From: Streptomyces venezuelae
GTDB taxonomy: Bacteria > Actinomycetota > Actinomycetes > Streptomycetales > Streptomycetaceae
NCBI RefSeq assembly: GCF_008642315.1
Contig: NZ_CP029192.1
Coordinates: 7,440,001-7,504,000, forward strand
Direction: 5' to 3'
Length of the DNA: 64,000 nucleotides
Positions 55,174 through 64,000 of the stretch are shown in pieces. The position numbers were made by a program, and so were the translations under genes. The number at the start of each line of letters is the position of its first letter. Within the stretch, counting starts at the first letter, position 1. Below the pieces are notes generated by a model that saw only the letters and a program-made list of their open reading frames with translations, ran no database searches and was not told the origin of the DNA.

Positions 55174-56061
55174 CTACGGACTCGGCCGGGGTTGCCGCCG
55201 CGTGGCGGCGACGAAACGCACCGGCGTTCCCGGCCGGGCCTGGGCCGCCGCGGCCAGGTCGCTCTCGCGGACCACGGCGACCACCGGGTAGCCCCCGGTG
55301 GTCGGGTGGTCGGCCAGGAAGACGACGGGCCGGCCGTCCGGCGGGACCTGCACGGCGCCGAGCACCATGCCTTCGCTGGGCAGCTCCCCTTCGAACGCCC
55401 GCTCCAGCGCCGGGCCCTCGGTGCGCAGGCCGATCCGGTTGCTCGCCGAGAACACCGTGTACGCGCGCGTGGTGAACGTGTCCAGCGCGGCCGCCGTGAA
55501 CCAGTCCGCGCGCGGCCCGAGCGTCACCCGGAGCACCAGCTCCCGGGGCGGCGCGGGCTGCGGGACGACGTCCACGCGTGCGTGGATGCCGCCTGGCCGG
55601 CCCAGGGGAAGGACGGCGCCGGTCGCGAGCGGGGGCGGGCCGAGGCCGGAGAGCAGATCCGTTGAGCGGCTGCCGAGCACCGGGTCGACGCTCACGCCGC
55701 CGTCGAACGCGACGTAGCAACGTACTCCGGAGACAGCCGATCCGATGTCGACAAGGGCGCCCGCGGGCACGCGCACCGGCGCTCCCCAGGGCGCGGGCCT
55801 GCCGTCGACGGCCACGGGGCAGGGGGCGCCGCCGACGGCGACCGTCACGGTCCTGCGCGGCCGCACGGCACAGCCGTCGAGAGTGGTCTCCAGGACGGCA
55901 GCGTCGGACGGATTGCCCACCAGGCGGTTGACCAGGCGGGCGGCGGGCGGGTCGAGGGCGCCGGAGCGGGGCACCCCGAGGTGGGCGTGCCCGGGGCGCC
56001 CGAGGTCCTGCACGGTGGTCAGGGCTCCGGCGCGCACGACGGCGAGGGCGTGGTCGGTCAT
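55174..56061 (-). CDS. pxpC: 5-oxoprolinase subunit C (biotin-dependent carboxyltransferase family)
   Basis: The 295-residue protein has T-V-Q-D-L-G-R-P-G-H near residue 15 and P-R-S-G-A-L-D near 30, typical of PxpC/KipA. S-N-R-I-G-L-R-T-E-G near 210 and G-G-Y-P-V-V-A-V near 265 also fit. With PxpA and PxpB it forms the ATP-dependent 5-oxoprolinase that opens pyroglutamate to glutamate. The ATG overlaps the pxpB stop by one base. It is the last gene of the operon. Confidence 0.92.
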   Translation of the reverse strand: MTDHALAVVRAGALTTVQDLGRPGHAHLGVPRSGALDPPAARLVNRLVGNPSDAAVLETTLDGCAVRPRRTVTVAVGGAPCPVAVDGRPAPWGAPVRVPAGALVDIGSAVSGVRCYVAFDGGVSVDPVLGSRSTDLLSGLGPPPLATGAVLPLGRPGGIHARVDVVPQPAPPRELVLRVTLGPRADWFTAAALDTFTTRAYTVFSASNRIGLRTEGPALERAFEGELPSEGMVLGAVQVPPDGRPVVFLADHPTTGGYPVVAVVRESDLAAAAQARPGTPVRFVAATRRQPRPSP

Positions 56062-56684
56062 CACGTCCCCACTACCGGACGGGGCACGAAGCGGACGCGG
56101 ACGCCGGGGGAGAGCAGCGCGGCGGGCACGCGCGCGTGGTCCCACAGCACGGCGTCCGTGGAGCCGATGAGCTGCCAGCCGCCGGGCGACGCACGCGGGT
56201 AGACGCCCGTGTACGGGCCCGCCAGGGCGACGCTGCCCGCGGGGACGCCGGTGCGGGGCGTGGCCCGGCGCGGCACCTCGTAGCGCTCGGGCAGGCCGGT
56301 GAGATAGCCGAAGCCGGGTGCGAAGCCGCAGAAGGCGACGCGGAATTCGGCGGCGGAGTGGATGCGCGCCACCTCGGCCACGGGCACGCCCCAGTGCGCC
56401 GCCACGTCCGCGAGGTCCGGTCCGTCGTACCTCACCGGGATCTCCACGACGTCTCCCGCGCGCGGGGGCAGCGGCGGGATCTCCCAGCCGGGCAGCTCCG
56501 CTCCGACGCGGCCGGGCTCGTCGAGACCGTCGAGGAGCACCGTACGGGCCGCGGGAACGATCTCCCGGACCCGCAGGGCGCCCGACGCGCGGCGGCGCAG
56601 CAGCTCCGCGTGGAGGGCCTGGGCCTCGGTGCCGTCGGAGAGCTCGACGAGCAGGGCCCGCTCGCCGACCGGCAGGGCCCTCAT
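56061..56684 (-). CDS. pxpB: 5-oxoprolinase subunit B
   Basis: The 207-residue KipI-like protein begins M-R-A-L-P-V-G-E-R-A-L-L-V-E. It contains the family signature F-C-G-F-A-P-G-F-G-Y-L near residue 118 and P-G-G-W-Q-L-I-G near 167. It binds PxpC in the 5-oxoprolinase complex. Four-base overlap with pxpA upstream and one-base overlap with pxpC downstream. Confidence 0.93.
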   Translation of the reverse strand: MRALPVGERALLVELSDGTEAQALHAELLRRRASGALRVREIVPAARTVLLDGLDEPGRVGAELPGWEIPPLPPRAGDVVEIPVRYDGPDLADVAAHWGVPVAEVARIHSAAEFRVAFCGFAPGFGYLTGLPERYEVPRRATPRTGVPAGSVALAGPYTGVYPRASPGGWQLIGSTDAVLWDHARVPAALLSPGVRVRFVPRPVVGT

Positions 56685-57445
56685 GCGAACGCCGCCACGC
56701 GCACGCCCGCCGCCGCCAGCTCGGCCCGCACCCGACGGGCCAGCTCCACCGCGCCCGGGGTGTCGCCGTGCAGACACAGCGACCGCGCGCGGACCTCGAT
56801 CTGGCGGCCCCCGAGGGTGGTGACGACACCGGAGCGGGCCATTTTGACGGACCGCGAGACGACGGAGTCCGCGTCCGTGACGACCGCCCCTTCCTGGGTG
56901 CGTGGAACCAGAGTGCCCTCGTCGGTGTAGGCGCGGTCCGCGAACGCCTCGGTGACGACGGGCAGCCCGGCCTTGTCCGCGGTCTTCAGGAGAGACGATC
57001 CGGGCAGCCCCAGGACGGGCAGCGCGGCGTCGGCGAGCAGTACGCCCTCGACGACCGCGCGGGCCTGTTCCTCGTCGTGGACGGCGCGGTTGTAGAGCGC
57101 GCCGTGCGGTTTCACGTACGACACGCGCGTGCCCGCCGCGCGGGCGAACACCTCCAAGGCGCCGATCTGGTACGCCACTTCGGCCGCCAGCTCCGCGGCG
57201 GGCACGTCCATGGCACGCCGCCCGAAGCCCGCCAGGTCCCGGTAGGACACCTGCGCACCGATCCGCACCCCGCGCTCGGCGGCGCGGTCGCACACCCGGC
57301 GCATGGTGGCCGGGTCCCCGGCGTGGAACCCACAGGCCACGTTGGCGCTGGTGACGACGGACAGCAGTTCCTCGTCGTCGGTCAGGTGCCAGCGGCCGAA
57401 GCCCTCGCCGAGGTCGGCGTTGAGATCGATCAGGGGCGCGTTCAT
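56681..57445 (-). CDS. pxpA: 5-oxoprolinase subunit A (LamB/YcsF family)
   Basis: The 254-residue protein has D-L-N-A-D-L-G-E-G-F-G near the N-terminus, N-V-A-C-G-F-H-A-G-D near 35, and V-K-P-H-G-A-L-Y-N near 112, all diagnostic of LamB/YcsF. ATG 57445 has a GGAGG site that sits inside a 20-base tandem duplication. It is the catalytic component for ring opening of 5-oxoproline, together with PxpBC. Confidence 0.93.
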   Translation of the reverse strand: MNAPLIDLNADLGEGFGRWHLTDDEELLSVVTSANVACGFHAGDPATMRRVCDRAAERGVRIGAQVSYRDLAGFGRRAMDVPAAELAAEVAYQIGALEVFARAAGTRVSYVKPHGALYNRAVHDEEQARAVVEGVLLADAALPVLGLPGSSLLKTADKAGLPVVTEAFADRAYTDEGTLVPRTQEGAVVTDADSVVSRSVKMARSGVVTTLGGRQIEVRARSLCLHGDTPGAVELARRVRAELAAAGVRVAAFA

Positions 57446-57447
57446 GG

Positions 57448-57485
57448 CGTAAGCCTCCAGTGCTTGACGTAAGCCTCCAATGCTT
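57448..57485 (-). repeat. Tandem duplication of the pxpA ribosome binding site
   Basis: Two 18-base copies (57448-57465 and 57468-57485, period 20, one mismatch) each contain the GGAGG core on the minus strand. The repeat fills the 47 bases between the upstream stop and pxpA. Confidence 0.85.
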
Positions 57486-57492
57486 TCGGCGG

Positions 57493-58293
57493 TCACACCA
57501 CGCGGTACTGCTCGTCCCGGGCGTCGGTGACGAACATCCGGCCCGGCGCGTGGGTGATCGCGAAGGGCGGCCGTGATGCCATCACCGCCGCCTGAGGGGT
57601 CACCCCGCACGCCCAGAACACCGGGATGTCGTCGGGCTCGACGGTCACCGCGTCGCCGAAGTCGGGGCGGTCCAGGTGCTGGATGCCGAGCCCGCCGGGG
57701 TCGCCGCAGTGCACCGGGCTGCCGTGCACCGCGGGCATCAGCGAGCTCTCCCTGATGGCGTCCGCGAGCCTCCCCGGCGGCACGGGGCGCATCGACACCA
57801 CCATCGGGCCGTGCAGGCGGCCTGCGGGGCGGCAGGGGCGGTCGGTGACGTACATCGGGACGTTGCGGCCCTGCTCGATGTGGCGCAGCGGGACGCCGGC
57901 GTCGGCGAGCGCCCACTCGAAGGTGAAACTGCAGCCGATGAGGAACGTCACCAGGTCGTCGCGCCAGTGGTCGACCACGTCCGTGGGCTCGGCGGTCATC
58001 TCGCCGTGCTCCCACACACGGTAGAGCGGCAGATCGGTGCGGAGATCGGCGCCCGGGGCGAGCGGAGTGGCCCAGGAGCCCGCGTCCGTGACGTCGAGGA
58101 CCGGGCAGGGCTTCGGGTTGCGCTGGCAGAACAGGAGCATCTCGTAGGCCCAGTCGGCGGGCACCGAGATGAGGTTGGCCTGCGTGAAGCCCGCGGCCCA
58201 CCCCGAGGTGGGGCTGGTGTCGCCCGCGCGGAAGGCGGCGCGCGCCTTCTTGGCGCTGCGGATCGACGGCGTGGCGCGCGTCTCGCGGTTCAC
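57493..58293 (-). CDS. D-glutamate cyclase-like / DUF1445 family putative hydro-lyase
   Basis: The 266-residue protein from GTG 58293 has the DUF1445 features [13 protein letters not shown] near residue 28, C-S-F-T-F-E-W-A-L near 121, and W-A-C-G-V-T-P-Q near 228. The family is often annotated as hydro-lyase, but the mitochondrial relative DGLUCY converts D-glutamate and 5-oxo-D-proline. Its place directly before the 5-oxoprolinase genes fits that chemistry. The start overlaps the transporter stop by four bases. Confidence 0.82.
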
Positions 58294-59594
58294 AGGAGTT
58301 CCCTTCCGCGCGTCTCCGGCAGACCGAGGAGTGCCAGGACGGCAAGTCCGTAACCGATGGCTCCGAAGACCAGCGCTCCGCCGACGCCCCAGCTGTCGGC
58401 GAGGAATCCGACCATGGTGGGGAAGACGGCACCGATCGCGCGTCCCGTGTTGTACGTGAAGCCCTGCCCTGTGCCGCGGACGGCGGCCGGGTACAACTCG
58501 CTGAGGAACGAGCCGAAGCCGCTGAAAATCGCCGACATACAGAAGCCCAGCGGAAAACCGAGCACAAGGAGAAGGCCGTTGGCGCCGTCCGGGATGTTCG
58601 TGTACGCGAGGATGCTGGCCGCCGAGAGGAAGGCGAAGAGCGTGATGTTCCGCTTCCTGCCGAGCTTGTCGGTGAGATAGCCGCCGGTCAGATAGCCGAT
58701 GAAGGCGCCGGAGATCAGGAAGGTCAGATAGCCGCCGGTGCCGACGACCGTGAGCCCGCGATCGCTCTTGAGATACGTGGGCACCCAGGTGGCCAGTGTG
58801 TAGTAGCCACCCTGCACGCCGGTGGACAGGAGCACCGCGAAGAACGTGGTGCGCAGCAGGCCCGGCTTGAAGATGGCCGTGAAGGATCCCTTGTCCGCGC
58901 TCTTGCGCCGTTCCTCGGCGGCCTCGGGCGCGTCGTGCACGTTGCGCCGTACGTAGATCACGAGGAGTGCGGGCAGCGCACCGGTCCAGAACATCACGCG
59001 CCAGGCGACGTCGTCGTCCAGGAACTGGAACACCAGGGTGTAGACGATCACCGCGAGCCCCCAGCCCACGGCCCAGGAGCTCTGGATCGCGCCCAGGGTG
59101 CGACCGCGGTTCTTGGCGGTGGCGTACTCGGCGACGAGGATCGCGCCGACCGCCCACTCGCCGCCGAATCCGAGCCCCTGGAGGGCACGGAAAACGAGCA
59201 GCGTCTCGTAGTTGGGTGCGAAACCGCACGCGACCGTGAAGACCGCGTACGTGACGACCGTGATCATCAGGGCCTTGACGCGGCCGATCCGGTCGGCGAC
59301 CACCCCCGCGATGGCGCCGCCCACGGCGGAGACGACGAGGGTGACGGTGGTGAAGAGCCCGGTCTGGCCGCTGTCGAGGCCGAAGTACGCGGCGAGCGCG
59401 ACCATGCTCAGTGGCAGCGTGAAGTAGTCGTAGGAGTCGAGGGCGTAGCCCCCGAAGGCGCCGGCGAAGGCGCGGCGTCCGCGGGGTCCGAGGGCGCGCA
59501 GCCAGCCGAACGCACCGCTGTCGTCAAAGGGTTCGACGTGTTCGGAGGGTGGCCCTGCCGGTGCGGCCGTGTCGGGCGGTGGGGTCGTGCTCAT
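58290..59594 (-). CDS. MFS transporter, probable 5-oxoproline or related carboxylate importer
   Basis: The 434-residue transporter has twelve helices and the sugar/aromatic-acid symporter motifs D-R-I-G-R-V-K near residue 102 and G-F-G-G-E-W-A-V-G near 142. It is the first gene of the operon with the D-glutamate-cyclase-like and pxpABC genes, so uptake of 5-oxoproline or D-glutamate is inferred. Its promoter contains the GntR-type operator. Confidence 0.8.
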
Positions 59595-59693
59595 GGGCAC
59601 CTCACAGGTGAGGGACGGAGGGTGCTGGAGCGGGCGTGGTGCGGTCGTGCGGTGGGGGGACGGGGAGGGGTGGAGCGGTGAGCCGTGCCCGAC

Positions 59694-59723
59694 AACGTAG
59701 AGGATCGTTGAACGATCCCTCAA
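59694..59723 (-). promoter_or_regulatory. Promoter of the 5-oxoproline operon with embedded GntR operator
   Basis: Minus strand TTGAGG (59718-59723) and TACGTT (59694-59699) are 18 bases apart. The spacer holds GGATCGTT-G-AACGATCC (59702-59718), a perfect 8+8 palindrome that matches the FadR/GntR operator form TNGTNNNACNA. A bound repressor would block RNA polymerase directly. Confidence 0.75.
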
Positions 59724-59787
59724 TACCCCTGTTGTTTCGTTCTTGCATCTGCGATTGAATCCGGGCATGGCGGAGGGGATGGGTGAC

Positions 59788-60474
59788 GTGAACGGACTGG
59801 CCGACGACCGCGCGCTCCTGGGGCGCACGAGCACGGCGGAGCGGGTCTCGGACATCCTGCGGAGCCGCATCGCCGCGGGCTTCTTCCCGCCCGGGACTCG
59901 GCTCTCCGAGGACAGCATCGGCGGCGCGCTCGGCGTCTCCCGCAACACGCTCCGGGAGGCGTTCCGGCTGCTCACGCACGAGCGGCTCCTTGAGCACCAG
60001 CTCAATCGCGGGGTGTTCGTGCGGATGCTGACCGATGAGGATGTGGGGGACATCTACCGCACCCGTGCCCTCGTCGAGTGCGCGGTCGTACGCGGGCTCG
60101 GGGAACCGCCGTACGCCGTGGACGGGCTGGCCGACGCCGTATCCGACGGGCGGCGGGCCGCGCGGGCGGGCGACTGGAAAGGTGTGTCCACCGCCAACAT
60201 CGACTTCCACCGGGAGCTCGTCGCTCTCGCGGGGAGCGAGCGCACCGACGAGCTGATGCGCAGCGTCTTCGCCGAACTGCGCCTCGCCTTCCACGTGGTG
60301 GACGACCCCCGGCGGCTCCACGAGCCCTACATCGCCCGCAACGGACAGATCCTGGAGGCGCTCCGGGAAGGCCGGCGCGACGACGCGGAGACGCTGCTCG
60401 TCGAGTACCTGGACGACTCGCGTCGGCGGGTGGTCGACGCGTACGGACAGCGGGCGGCGGGCGACCACGGCTGA
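59788..60474 (+). CDS. GntR/FadR-family transcriptional regulator
   Basis: The protein has 228 residues from GTG 59788, chosen because GGAGGGG lies about 9 bases upstream; ATG 59767 and 59779 are in frame. The winged helix (about 15-75) has P-P-G-T-R-L-S-E-D-S-I-G and S-R-N-T-L-R-E-A-F-R. The C-terminal FCD-type helical domain has the metal/ligand residues D-F-H-R-E-L near 140 and the N-G-Q-I-L-E-A-L segment near 190. It is divergent from the 5-oxoproline operon and almost certainly its repressor. Confidence 0.86.
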   Translation: MNGLADDRALLGRTSTAERVSDILRSRIAAGFFPPGTRLSEDSIGGALGVSRNTLREAFRLLTHERLLEHQLNRGVFVRMLTDEDVGDIYRTRALVECAVVRGLGEPPYAVDGLADAVSDGRRAARAGDWKGVSTANIDFHRELVALAGSERTDELMRSVFAELRLAFHVVDDPRRLHEPYIARNGQILEALREGRRDDAETLLVEYLDDSRRRVVDAYGQRAAGDHG

Positions 60475-60537
60475 GCGGGTGCTGTCAGGTCTGCGCCGTT
60501 TCGACCGTTGTCAGACCGAGGATCTAGTCTGTGCACC

Positions 60538-62064
60538 GTGACTTCGCCTGCCGTTACGGACTCCGCTCCGCCCCAGCTCAGCGCGGGGCCGCGGCCCGCT
60601 CTGGGCCCGGCCGCCGACGAGGGCCTGGCGCGCCGCCTGCGCGCCCTCGCCTGCACGGCTCCGCTGCACGACCTCGACGTGCGCAAGGCCAACCTCGCGG
60701 GTGAGTACTCGGTGTACGCGATGGCGGAGGTGGCCCTGTCCGCCATCGACCTCGTCACGCTCAACATGGACTTCGACACCGGCGCCGACCACGAGCAGAT
60801 CGTCGGCCGGCTCCTCCCGCGCGTCGCCGCCCAGGCGCCCGCGCGCCCGGCCGCCGAGCACGAGCGCGTGGCCCGCTGGGTCCTGGAGAACCTGATCAAC
60901 GTGGGCAGCGTCGACCGCGGCTTTCGCGCCGTGTACGGCACCTTCGCCCCGGACGGGACGTATGTCCGCAGGGACTACGACTTCAAGCTCCTCGAAGAGG
61001 TCCCCGGCCACGGCGGCAGTGTCTACCTGCGGACGACCGACGAAGCGGTCAACGTCCTGGTGGGCGCCCTCGACACCGACGTCACCAGCGCGCAGATCGC
61101 CGCCGAGGTGAAGCTCGAGGTGCTGATCAGCCGCGGCAGGCTCGCCGACGCCCAGCTCGCCGCGGAGCAGGCCCGCTACCGCACCGTCCAGTACTCGGAA
61201 ACCCTGCGCAAGGCCCTCGACGCGACCCGGCGCAACGTCCGCGCGGTGGACTGGCTCAAGGCCGTCCCCGACATGATCGCCGAAGCACTCGACCACGTAG
61301 CGGACCGGTACCGCCACGAGAACGCCATCCTGACCAACATCCGCAAGGCCCGCGACGAGTCCGAGGACCCCGAGCAGAAGCGCCGCGCCGCCGAGCTGGT
61401 CGACATCGTCAAGGACTGCATCCGCCGCCACACCCAGCTGCAGTCCCGCCTCCTGGAGGCCGGCCCCCTCTTCCGCGCCGAACAGGACCGGCAGGCCTTC
61501 GCCACTCCCACCGCACGCGCGGGCCTCGACCTGTACGGCCAGCTGGTCGCACCCCTCCTGCCGCTCCCGGCCGAACAGGCGATCCGCGTGACGGATGCCT
61601 ACTTCACCCGCGGCACCGGACTGCGCACCCCCGTCTCCGTCCGCGTCGGCGACCTCGTCGACATACTGCTCACGCCGCCCATGGAGCGCGAGCACCTCGG
61701 CGCGGAGATGCCCGAGCCCGACCTCATCGCCACCCCGGACGACAGCCGCTTCAGCGAGGAGCAGCTCGCGAGCGCCATGGAACTGCTCGATCTGCCCTCC
61801 GACGCGCCGCGCAGGCTCTCCGGCCTTCTTGCCGACGCCCGGCGCCGCGACCCCGAACTGCCCTACCTGGTCGCCCTGCTGGCCGTGCACGCGGCCAGCC
61901 CGCCGGTCGGCACCGCCTACCGCCAGGGCGAGGAGAAGCTCCTCTTCGCCGTGGACGACGGCACCGAACTCGACGACGAGGAGTTCGGCGGCGCGGACCT
62001 CGTCGTCGGCACCGCGCTCCTGGACGCCGTCGGCATGGCGGCCGACCGGACGGAGGCGGCGTGA
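60538..62064 (+). CDS. Putative kleisin subunit of a MukF/MksF/JetA-like condensin
   Basis: This 508-residue protein starts at GTG 60538. TAGTCT at 60525-60530 lies only 7 bases upstream, so the mRNA may be leaderless. The N-terminal 130 residues look like a winged-helix domain (V-A-R-W-V-L-E-N-L-I-N). A long helical middle (about 180-330, with E-V-L-I-S-R-G-R-L-A-D-A-Q-L-A-A-E-Q-A-R-Y and K-R-R-A-A-E-L-V-D-I-V-K) and a small C-terminal domain follow. This is the layout of MksF/JetA kleisins. The next two genes give the KITE-like and SMC-like partners in the usual order. The family call is by layout and context, not by a search. Confidence 0.6.
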   Translation: MTSPAVTDSAPPQLSAGPRPALGPAADEGLARRLRALACTAPLHDLDVRKANLAGEYSVYAMAEVALSAIDLVTLNMDFDTGADHEQIVGRLLPRVAAQAPARPAAEHERVARWVLENLINVGSVDRGFRAVYGTFAPDGTYVRRDYDFKLLEEVPGHGGSVYLRTTDEAVNVLVGALDTDVTSAQIAAEVKLEVLISRGRLADAQLAAEQARYRTVQYSETLRKALDATRRNVRAVDWLKAVPDMIAEALDHVADRYRHENAILTNIRKARDESEDPEQKRRAAELVDIVKDCIRRHTQLQSRLLEAGPLFRAEQDRQAFATPTARAGLDLYGQLVAPLLPLPAEQAIRVTDAYFTRGTGLRTPVSVRVGDLVDILLTPPMEREHLGAEMPEPDLIATPDDSRFSEEQLASAMELLDLPSDAPRRLSGLLADARRRDPELPYLVALLAVHAASPPVGTAYRQGEEKLLFAVDDGTELDDEEFGGADLVVGTALLDAVGMAADRTEAA

Positions 62065-62110
62065 CCATGACCCACCCCCACTCCCACCTCTTCCTCAAGG
62101 AGCACACGCC

Positions 62111-63004
62111 GTGACCGACCACCCCGCAGAGCACGCCGCGTGGGGCGAGCCGGACTCCACGGCGGCGCCCGCCGCCCCCGCGCCCGTCACCCCGGCCGAC
62201 GCCGCCGACGCCGCGCGGCTCGTCGCCTTCGGGCTGCAGCCCAAGCTGCAGCCCGCCCGCGACCAGGAGTACGCCGAACTGCTCCGCCGCTACCGCGAGG
62301 ACCCGCCCTTCGCCCGGCTCGCCGACGCCGTCGCCACCGGGCTCGGGCTCGTCGTCCTTGAGGTGTCCCCGCGCGCGGGCATGGCCGTGACCGCCGCGGA
62401 GGACTCCGTCTTCGCCGTCCGCATGGGGGACTACGCACGCCGCGCGGCCACCGACTCCACCGACCGCTTCCTGCACGGCCTCGCACACCTCGCCATCGCG
62501 GCCATGGCGTTCCCGCGCCCCGAGGACCTCGCCGACGACGGCTACATCGGCCGGGTCACCGTCAACGGAGTGGACGCGTTCGTGCGCCAGGCCTGCCACC
62601 GCCTGGAGGAGCGCGCCGAGGAACACGGCGACAACACCGACCCCGCGACGGACGCCCCGGGCCTCGAGGCCGCCTGGCGGATCTGGGCCCGCCGCAGCTC
62701 GACCGGCGCCACCAAGGACGCCCGCCGCCTGGCAGGCTCCACCACCGGCATCGTCGGCAAGGCGGCCGCCTTCCTCACCGACTCGGGGTTCCTGCAGCGC
62801 ACGGGTGACGACTCCGGAGGCACGTACCGCACCACGGCCCGCTACCAGCTCCAGGTCCGCGACATGGCGGGCACCGCGGCCATGGCGGAGCTCCTCGAAC
62901 TCGGCGTCGTCCCGGTCACGGACGGCTCGGCGACGCTGCTGCCGCCCGAAGAGACCGACGACCTGGAGCTGGCCGCCGACGCGGGGCTGCCGTTCCACTC
63001 CTGA
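62111..63004 (+). CDS. Putative KITE subunit of a MukE/MksE/JetB-like condensin
   Basis: The 297-residue protein starts at GTG 62111 with AAGGAG upstream, 46 bases after the kleisin-like gene. After an Ala/Pro-rich N-terminus (1-40) it has two winged-helix-like halves: R-F-L-H-G-L-A-H-L-A-I-A-A-M-A-F near 118 and, after a linker, G-K-A-A-A-F-L-T-D-S-G-F-L-Q-R-T-G near 217 with a beta wing (T-Y-R-T-T-A-R-Y-Q-L-Q-V). Tandem winged helices beside an SMC gene fit a KITE protein, which would bind the kleisin. No catalytic motif. Confidence 0.58.
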   Translation: MTDHPAEHAAWGEPDSTAAPAAPAPVTPADAADAARLVAFGLQPKLQPARDQEYAELLRRYREDPPFARLADAVATGLGLVVLEVSPRAGMAVTAAEDSVFAVRMGDYARRAATDSTDRFLHGLAHLAIAAMAFPRPEDLADDGYIGRVTVNGVDAFVRQACHRLEERAEEHGDNTDPATDAPGLEAAWRIWARRSSTGATKDARRLAGSTTGIVGKAAAFLTDSGFLQRTGDDSGGTYRTTARYQLQVRDMAGTAAMAELLELGVVPVTDGSATLLPPEETDDLELAADAGLPFHS

Positions 63005-63103
63005 CGCGCCGCTCCTGACGCGGCCCCGCCCGGCCGCCGGGCTCCGGCCCCCCGCCCCCACCTTCCTTGCCGTCCCCACGACTTACGACGAGAGTCCGCC
63101 GCC

Positions 63104-64000
63104 ATGTACGAGCTGTCCCGGATCCGCCTCTACTCCATCGGGCCGGCCGGTGCGCGCTACGCCGACACTGTGCTCGACCTGCGCGGCGTCGGCGCGGAGG
63201 TGCCCGACCCCGCGCCCACCCAGGCGGAGTTCTTCGAGGACGAGCCCGTGGGCCCGCCGCGCCGCCCCGCCCCCGCCGGCGTGCTCTTCCTGGAGAACGG
63301 CGGCGGCAAGTCCGTCCTGCTCAAGCTGATCTTCTCGGTCATGCTGCCCGGCCACCGGAACACGCTCGGCGGCGCCAGCTCCGGTGTGCTGCGCAAGTTC
63401 CTGCTCGCCGACGACTGCGGGCACGTCGCCCTGGAGTGGCAGCACACCCTGACCGGCGAGTGCGTGGTCGTCGGCAAGGTCAGCGAGTGGCGCGGCCGAC
63501 AGGTCTCCAACGACCCGCGGAAGTTCGCCGAGGCCTGGTACTCCTTCCGGCCGGGCCCGGGCCTGAGCCTGGACTCGCTGCCCGTCGCCGAGTCCACCGC
63601 CGTGCGCCCTTCGGTGGAGGGCGCGTCCGGCGCCCAGGGGCGGCGGCGCACCATGAAGGGCTTCCGCGACGCCATGACCGAGGCGGTCAAGGCGTACCCG
63701 CACCTCGAAGTGCACTGGGAAGAGATCCACGACCGCTGGAACGAACACCTCGGCGACCTCGGCCTGGACCCCGAACTCTTCCGCTACCAGCGGGAGATGA
63801 ACGCCGACGAGGGCGAGGCCGCAGGCCTCTTCGCCGTCAAGAAGGACTCCGACTTCACCGACCTGCTGCTGCGCGCCGTCACCGACACGCGCGACACGGA
63901 CGGCCTCGCCGACCTCGTCCACGGCTTCGGCAACAAGCTGGGCCGTCGCGCCGAGCTGATGGCCGAACGCGACTTCACCGCGGGCTCCGTGGACCTGCTG
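63104..64000 (+). CDS. Putative SMC-like ATPase (MukB/MksB/JetC-like), 5' part only
   Basis: The window ends inside this gene after 299 codons from ATG 63104. The N-terminus reads R-I-R-L-Y-S-I-G-P-A-G-A-R-Y-A-D-T-V-L-D-L, like the first strands of an SMC head. The P-loop follows at 63-70 as L-E-N-G-G-G-K-S. Asn65, Gly66, Gly68, Lys69 and Ser70 match the SMC form GxNGxGKS, but the first glycine is leucine. Residues 180-290 are helical and charged and lead toward an expected coiled coil. It would power DNA loading or extrusion with the two preceding proteins. Confidence 0.65.
   Translation, partial: MYELSRIRLYSIGPAGARYADTVLDLRGVGAEVPDPAPTQAEFFEDEPVGPPRRPAPAGVLFLENGGGKSVLLKLIFSVMLPGHRNTLGGASSGVLRKFLLADDCGHVALEWQHTLTGECVVVGKVSEWRGRQVSNDPRKFAEAWYSFRPGPGLSLDSLPVAESTAVRPSVEGASGAQGRRRTMKGFRDAMTEAVKAYPHLEVHWEEIHDRWNEHLGDLGLDPELFRYQREMNADEGEAAGLFAVKKDSDFTDLLLRAVTDTRDTDGLADLVHGFGNKLGRRAELMAERDFTAGSVDLL

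Follow-up and report, generated by a model that had tools for sequence, protein, structure and literature searches.

SMC-type complexes (SMC, structural maintenance of chromosomes) are known as chromosomal condensins and as defence systems. MksBEF, for example from P. aeruginosa, is a chromosomal condensin without JetD. The nuclease JetD is common to all types of the Wadjet defence system, of which type III consists of JetA3-JetB3-JetC3-JetD3 and type I includes MksBEFG/EptABCD of Corynebacterium and Mycobacterium. RecN and Smc5/6 are SMC-type proteins linked to DNA damage. In a review account, JetD is treated as the effector of Wadjet and plasmid cutting as its job (PMC10586767). Here, a jetABC locus without jetD is described from Streptomyces venezuelae, found at the edge of a 64,000-nt stretch of DNA (the window, C1:7440001-7504000 of a single-contig 8.94 Mb genome) and lying 1.44 Mb away from the nearer chromosome end. 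At the sequence level, the locus combines JetA3 and JetC3 subunits and intact ATPase motifs with the absence of JetD, purifying selection, near-universal occurrence and a promoter shared with recA, uvrA and uvrB.

Compared with Wadjet type III, the locus has matches to the JetA3 and JetC3 profiles, the A-B-C gene order and the ATPase motifs in common, whereas JetD neither adjoins it nor was matched elsewhere in the genome, and it is a core, family-wide locus instead of a patchy one. MksBEF is the nearest precedent, having the same kleisin-KITE-SMC order without a nuclease; by sequence, however, JetABC belongs to another lineage (JetC3/DUF3584), it stands behind a RecA-NDp promoter, and its role on the chromosome is putative. 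RecN and Smc5/6 would resemble it by analogy of role only, as SMC-type ATPases with damage-linked control or function, and belong to different families. MksBEFG/EptABCD share the layout and are SMC complexes of Actinobacteria as well, but these keep the nuclease MksG/JetD (PMC10123090), and the type I JetA and JetB have no detectable profile similarity to JetA and JetB here. With the RecA-NDp/PafBC regulon the locus shares the promoter sequence, the leaderless spacing and the company of recA, uvrA, uvrB and radA, whereas the regulon accounts in PMC5087735, PMC9380542 and PMC6789036 name no SMC complex in the portions drawn on here.

Subunits of JetABC and the absence of JetD

The original prediction, made from the letters of the window, had read three same-strand open reading frames (ORFs) as a MukFEB/MksFEB/Wadjet-type complex and possibly as a divergent or undescribed branch. 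All three ORFs were confirmed (Table 1). The SMC-like gene, of which 299 aa lie inside the window, continues past its edge to a complete protein of 1554 aa (ORF L002:8105-12769, ending at what would be window position 67768). None of the three is a chance ORF, because JetA and JetC match the PADLOC profiles JetA3 and JetC3 and orthologues of all three are kept together in the same order, grouped in 13 core Streptomyces loci (18–20 kb each) and also present in 16/16 loci from other Streptomycetaceae genera. The JetABC/MksFEB layout stood and was sharpened to the type III Wadjet lineage; this lineage is already described in PADLOC, and it is the jetD-less core form that seems undescribed. The accompanying view that Streptomyces has another SMC agrees with a canonical Smc found elsewhere in the genome (C1:2660941-2664504).

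The C-terminal ABC signature expected of the downstream SMC protein is present as FSGGQ at residue 1409, together with Walker A at residue 64 and LFLDNPIG at residue 1444; with these motifs and the PADLOC match, JetC is a JetC3-type SMC ATPase. The Walker B motif reads LDNPIG in the jetD-less clade and is identical or nearly so in most jetD-bearing JetC copies, so the D-N form is a property of type III. Searches with JetC against Pfam (E up to 0.1) and PDB (E up to 0.01) gave no match. Family searches with JetB gave no direct match either; it was placed by its identity to the JetB of a complete Wadjet III locus (L033), which itself matches PADLOC JetB3 weakly (E=7.6e-4). JetA and JetB are presumed to be the kleisin and KITE subunits from the PADLOC names and the gene order, and with these names the locus has the kleisin-KITE-SMC order without nuclease of MksBEF/MukBEF-type complexes, the folds being putative.

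Plasmid cleavage by a Wadjet system with jetD, which had also been proposed, was not supported, as no jetD lies beside jetABC. The DNA after position 64000, suggested as the place to look for a JetD-like gene, contains after jetC a convergent gene instead (L002:12762-13901, minus strand; a Rieske-type oxygenase by eye). A conserved neighbour standing in for JetD was rejected, since among the flanking genes listed none is common to all loci. JetD supplied in trans was rejected for this genome as well, which showed no match to PF09983 (JetD_C), PF09664 (DUF2399) or a JetD3 profile derived from the sequences of four extra-copy loci. Cleavage of plasmids by JetABC is not expected, because the review cited above assigns this activity to JetD.

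Across 150 Streptomyces genomes, PF09983 matched in 18 and the JetD3 profile in 11. The JetD3 of one genome (G007) escaped PF09983 and was found by reading the locus and with the JetD3 profile, so PF09983 alone is too blunt. More than one JetA match was obtained in 13 Streptomyces genomes, which include all 11 with JetD3; for another of the 13 (G119), the contig fetched (L100) has only a core-type jetABC with jetA in two pieces. Counted per locus over 97 loci with a complete JetC by ORF call, in which some genomes are represented twice, JetD occurred in 0/91 loci with a JetA of at least 56% identity (89 of which extend 1.5 kb or further past jetC) and in 6/6 loci below 56%. Nine of ten further extra-copy loci carry JetD, the tenth (L187) having been fetched too short, and no JetD was found in 16 loci from 15 other Streptomycetaceae genera, with 3.6–5.4 kb beyond jetC. 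The JetD proteins scored as PADLOC JetD3 in 5/5 cases tested. JetA identity alone was rejected as a divider of the two forms, as L184 (58%) and L185 (56%) carry JetD; the two forms are divided by the JetA tree described below.

In three Streptomyces genomes (G090, G049 and G129; C1), jetD matches lie within about 15–40 kb of both chromosome ends, as if the Wadjet loci stood in putative terminal inverted repeats. Wadjet has been reported to be enriched toward Streptomyces chromosome ends (PMC10482375).

JetA was matched in 147/150 Streptomyces genomes, one match (G121, E=5.3e-70) being far weaker than the rest; two of the three genomes without a match are 78–82% complete and the third (G073) is 98% complete. 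Family-wide, 148/150 Streptomycetaceae genomes and 17/17 genera gave a match, which was weak in one genus (G395, E=5.7e-17). Given these numbers, jetABC is not a defence island. In a class-wide draw, with the best six candidates per genome scored, JetA was found in 33/246 genomes, of which 22 are Streptomyces and 11 come from a single further family, which we infer to be Frankiaceae because its JetB relatives at 59–61% identity are named Frankia and Parafrankia. JetA was matched in 19/35 genomes of this family. Eleven presumed Frankiaceae loci were fetched, and in two of them (L094 and L097) the contig stops too early to tell whether jetD follows.

In a tree of 40 JetAs, the 13 Streptomyces and 11 presumed Frankiaceae jetD-less rows lie on one side of a branch and the 15 jetD-bearing rows on the other (96/96, one change), the row of L101, whose jetC is cut, not being counted. 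With a distant jetD-bearing row as the root, the tree places the jetD-less loci in one clade and is consistent with a single loss of the nuclease. Because of the length of the root branch, the direction of the change is drawn in part from the presence of JetD in every Wadjet type.

The ratios of nonsynonymous to synonymous substitution (dN/dS) calculated by the Nei-Gojobori method (8 pairs per gene) were 0.059–0.128 for JetA, 0.072–0.172 for JetB and 0.112–0.213 for JetC. Over stop-to-stop frames, the three ATPase motifs stand in one frame in 89/91 stop-terminated jetD-less jetC ORFs, with 8 more ORFs reaching the locus end mid-gene; the two exceptions are L104, which is truncated, and L090, whose frame is interrupted. 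Variants of jetC occur among the presumed Frankiaceae: the open frame of L096 spans about 1180 aa compared with about 1550, and the Walker A part of L090 is in another frame.

The promoter of jetA and its companions

Upstream of jetA, the element TTGTCAGAC (60508-60516) is followed after 8 nt by TAGTCT (60525-60530) and after another 7 nt by the GTG start of jetA. From this short distance, the jetA transcript is probably leaderless. In an alignment of 86 upstream regions, a conserved block reaching the jetA start was the most conserved element, and we take this block to be a RecA-NDp promoter, TTGTCRGTG-N8-TAnnnT. Promoters of this type precede numerous DNA-damage genes in Actinomycetales, as shown for recA of S. 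coelicolor (PMC5087735), and PafBC acts via them (PMC6789036).

The pattern TTGTCRG-N10-TAnnnT, found close before jetA in the window, was matched strictly in 102 and in relaxed form in 136 of 140 Streptomycetaceae loci (some genomes occurring twice). Among 91 longer loci, 65 strict and 89 relaxed matches compare with 0.2 and 0.6 after a crude shuffle, and the spacing to the jetA start is exactly 7 nt in 87/89 loci. Moreover, when 80 loci (3.16 Mb) were scanned on both strands, 60 of the 64 strict hits were the jetA promoter itself. In the other Streptomycetaceae genera, the relaxed motif was present in 12/16 loci, and three of the four misses showed a putative, weaker look-alike with 2–3 mismatches 7–8 nt before a GTG. 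RecA-NDp-like motifs also stand upstream of jetA in some nuclease-bearing type III copies, strictly in L102 and L192 and in relaxed form in L189 and L191, and L101, with its jetC cut off, has a strict one.

The genome studied here contains 35 strict RecA-NDp sites, compared with 5 for the reversed pattern. Thirty of the 35 sites were taken as loci (L197–L226) and assigned the longest ORF starting within 260 nt; with L197, L214 and JetA itself set aside, 27 genes were scanned. Sixteen of the 27 are repair, replication, recombination or thyX genes, namely those for a YoaA/DinG-type helicase, recA, thyX, ligA, pcrA, radA, dnaX, a uvrA relative, an SCO1167-family helicase, uvrB, uvrA, a RecD2-HHH protein, a PD-(D/E)XK nuclease (L221), a DEAD/DSHCT helicase, ruvA and rarA/MgsA. 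Some of the sixteen ORFs are truncated by the locus end and score below curated cut-offs. The motif stands 7 nt from recA, radA, dnaX, uvrB and rarA, the same spacing as for jetA, and the ligA start was taken 202 nt away. A PafB-PafC pair is encoded as well, a WYL/WCX protein and an HTH_PafC protein following the Pup ligase, with tatA, tatC and a motif-bearing helicase gene next in line. The 35 strict sites, many of them before repair genes, may serve as a candidate PafBC regulon list for Streptomyces.

Whether S. venezuelae conserves the PafBC motif of M. smegmatis was left open in PMC9380542 after an initial search that did not find it conserved, a report that weighs against damage control of the kind considered here. 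On this point, the present genome does have RecA-NDp motifs in front of recA, uvrA, uvrB and further repair genes, which makes a PafBC-type response in Streptomyces directly testable.

Possible roles of JetABC

We lean towards the view that JetABC, derived from Wadjet III and devoid of JetD, is a Streptomycetaceae core operon under DNA-damage control that provides a motor for the cell's own DNA; induction by PafBC, loop extrusion and action on the chromosome are what we infer beyond the sequence. The missing nuclease, the core status and the repair-type promoter suggest the conversion of a defence motor into one for DNA repair or chromosome care. PafBC would switch on jetABC upon DNA damage, and JetABC would work alongside Smc-ScpAB as an ATP-driven loop-extruding motor, compacting or tethering damaged chromosomes in the multi-genome hyphae so that recombination and segregation could proceed. 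A bolder form of this proposal is offered only tentatively, in which a plasmid-restriction SMC machine became, family-wide, a damage-induced loop-extruding repair complex and functional counterpart of Smc5/6, having lost its nuclease once, come under PafBC control and acting on broken chromosomes beside Smc-ScpAB, perhaps also silencing circular DNA.

Such a role would let one trace how a defence SMC complex loses its weapon and enters the housekeeping set of the cell, and nuclease-bearing copies within the genus are there for comparison. A second condensin-like complex of Streptomyces, induced by DNA damage, is then predicted, and it could help to account for the mildness of the smc mutant phenotype in vegetative growth (PMC4255298).

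Several observations speak against parts of this proposal. The Walker B of type III JetC has Asn in place of the catalytic Glu of canonical SMC ATPases (D-N instead of D-E), and ATP hydrolysis by JetC is a prediction. As to the folds, the structure model of JetB, with winged-helix neighbours, has low confidence, and JetA and JetB gave no match in profile comparisons with their type I counterparts, so that the kleisin and KITE folds are putative. The motif was found within 800 nt in 0/11 presumed Frankiaceae loci, so damage control is not a trait of the whole jetD-less clade. Nor is the motif specific to the jetD-less form, as it precedes 2 (strict) to 5 (relaxed, one of the five inside an ORF) of 15 jetD-bearing copies. 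Furthermore, of the 27 genes scanned downstream of the genomic sites, 11 encode something other than the functions listed above or have no family.

JetABC might instead remain an anti-plasmid or anti-phage system that does not cut, extruding small circular DNA and holding or silencing it, with the damage promoter arming it on the entry of foreign DNA. The close JetD-bearing relatives being Wadjet III systems, the same promoter motif before some of them and the reported triggering of PafBC by single-stranded DNA (PMC11804915) favour this view, which we nevertheless regard as unlikely given the effector role of JetD in the review (PMC10586767) and a near-universal retention in the genus that is unlike the patchy jetD-bearing copies (11/150). 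A general second condensin of the MksBEF kind, serving growth and sporulation with the damage-type promoter as one control layer, would suit the core status in Streptomycetaceae and the sister clade in a second family, the presumed Frankiaceae, which lacks the damage motif. Frankiaceae are also filamentous and spore-forming. The little vegetative effect reported for smc mutants of S. coelicolor (PMC4255298) points the same way, yet the element most conserved upstream of jetA is a promoter common to recA, uvrA and uvrB, and we consider this general role quite unlikely.

A split Wadjet, with JetABC as its sensor and the nuclease, a distant JetD or an unrelated enzyme, encoded elsewhere in the genome, gains something from the divergence of JetD3, large enough for PF09983 to miss the copy in G007, and from the PD-(D/E)XK nuclease gene (L221) with the same promoter motif. 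It is very improbable in view of the empty searches of this genome with PF09983, PF09664 and the JetD3 profile and of the JetD3 match missing in 139/150 genomes of the genus. A decaying Wadjet relic would account for the missing nuclease gene and for single broken or shortened loci (L090 and L096). With dN/dS of 0.06–0.21, retention in 147/150 genomes and the ATPase motifs in one frame in 89/91 ORFs, this explanation was rejected as largely refuted by purifying selection and retention, and it is scarcely credible.

Features and neighbourhood of the locus

Table 1. Features of the jetABC locus, in window coordinates.
Feature	Position	Strand	Evidence
RecA-NDp/PafBC-type promoter (putative)	60508..60530	+	genome pattern match at C1:7500508-7500530; conserved block upstream
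jetA (JetA3, 508 aa; presumed kleisin-type subunit, from its PADLOC name and the gene order)	60538..62064	+	PADLOC PDLC00567, E=9.5e-187
jetB (JetB3-like, 297 aa; presumed KITE subunit)	62111..63004	+	49% identity to JetB of L033
jetC, 5' part (JetC3 SMC ATPase, DUF3584 type)	63104..64000	+	PADLOC PDLC00588, E=0, full protein

In L046, a roadblock-like ORF comes after a large sensor-kinase-like one (a conservon by eye) 8–11.6 kb past the jetA start, and the pair recurs downstream of jetC in several other core loci; it is treated as synteny only. In the window, the upstream side of jetABC is occupied by a GntR/FadR-like regulator (59743-60474) and a transporter and oxoprolinase-like cluster (55174-60053), all named by eye. 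The downstream side holds a betaine-type catabolic cluster (L002:12762-19823), likewise named by eye.

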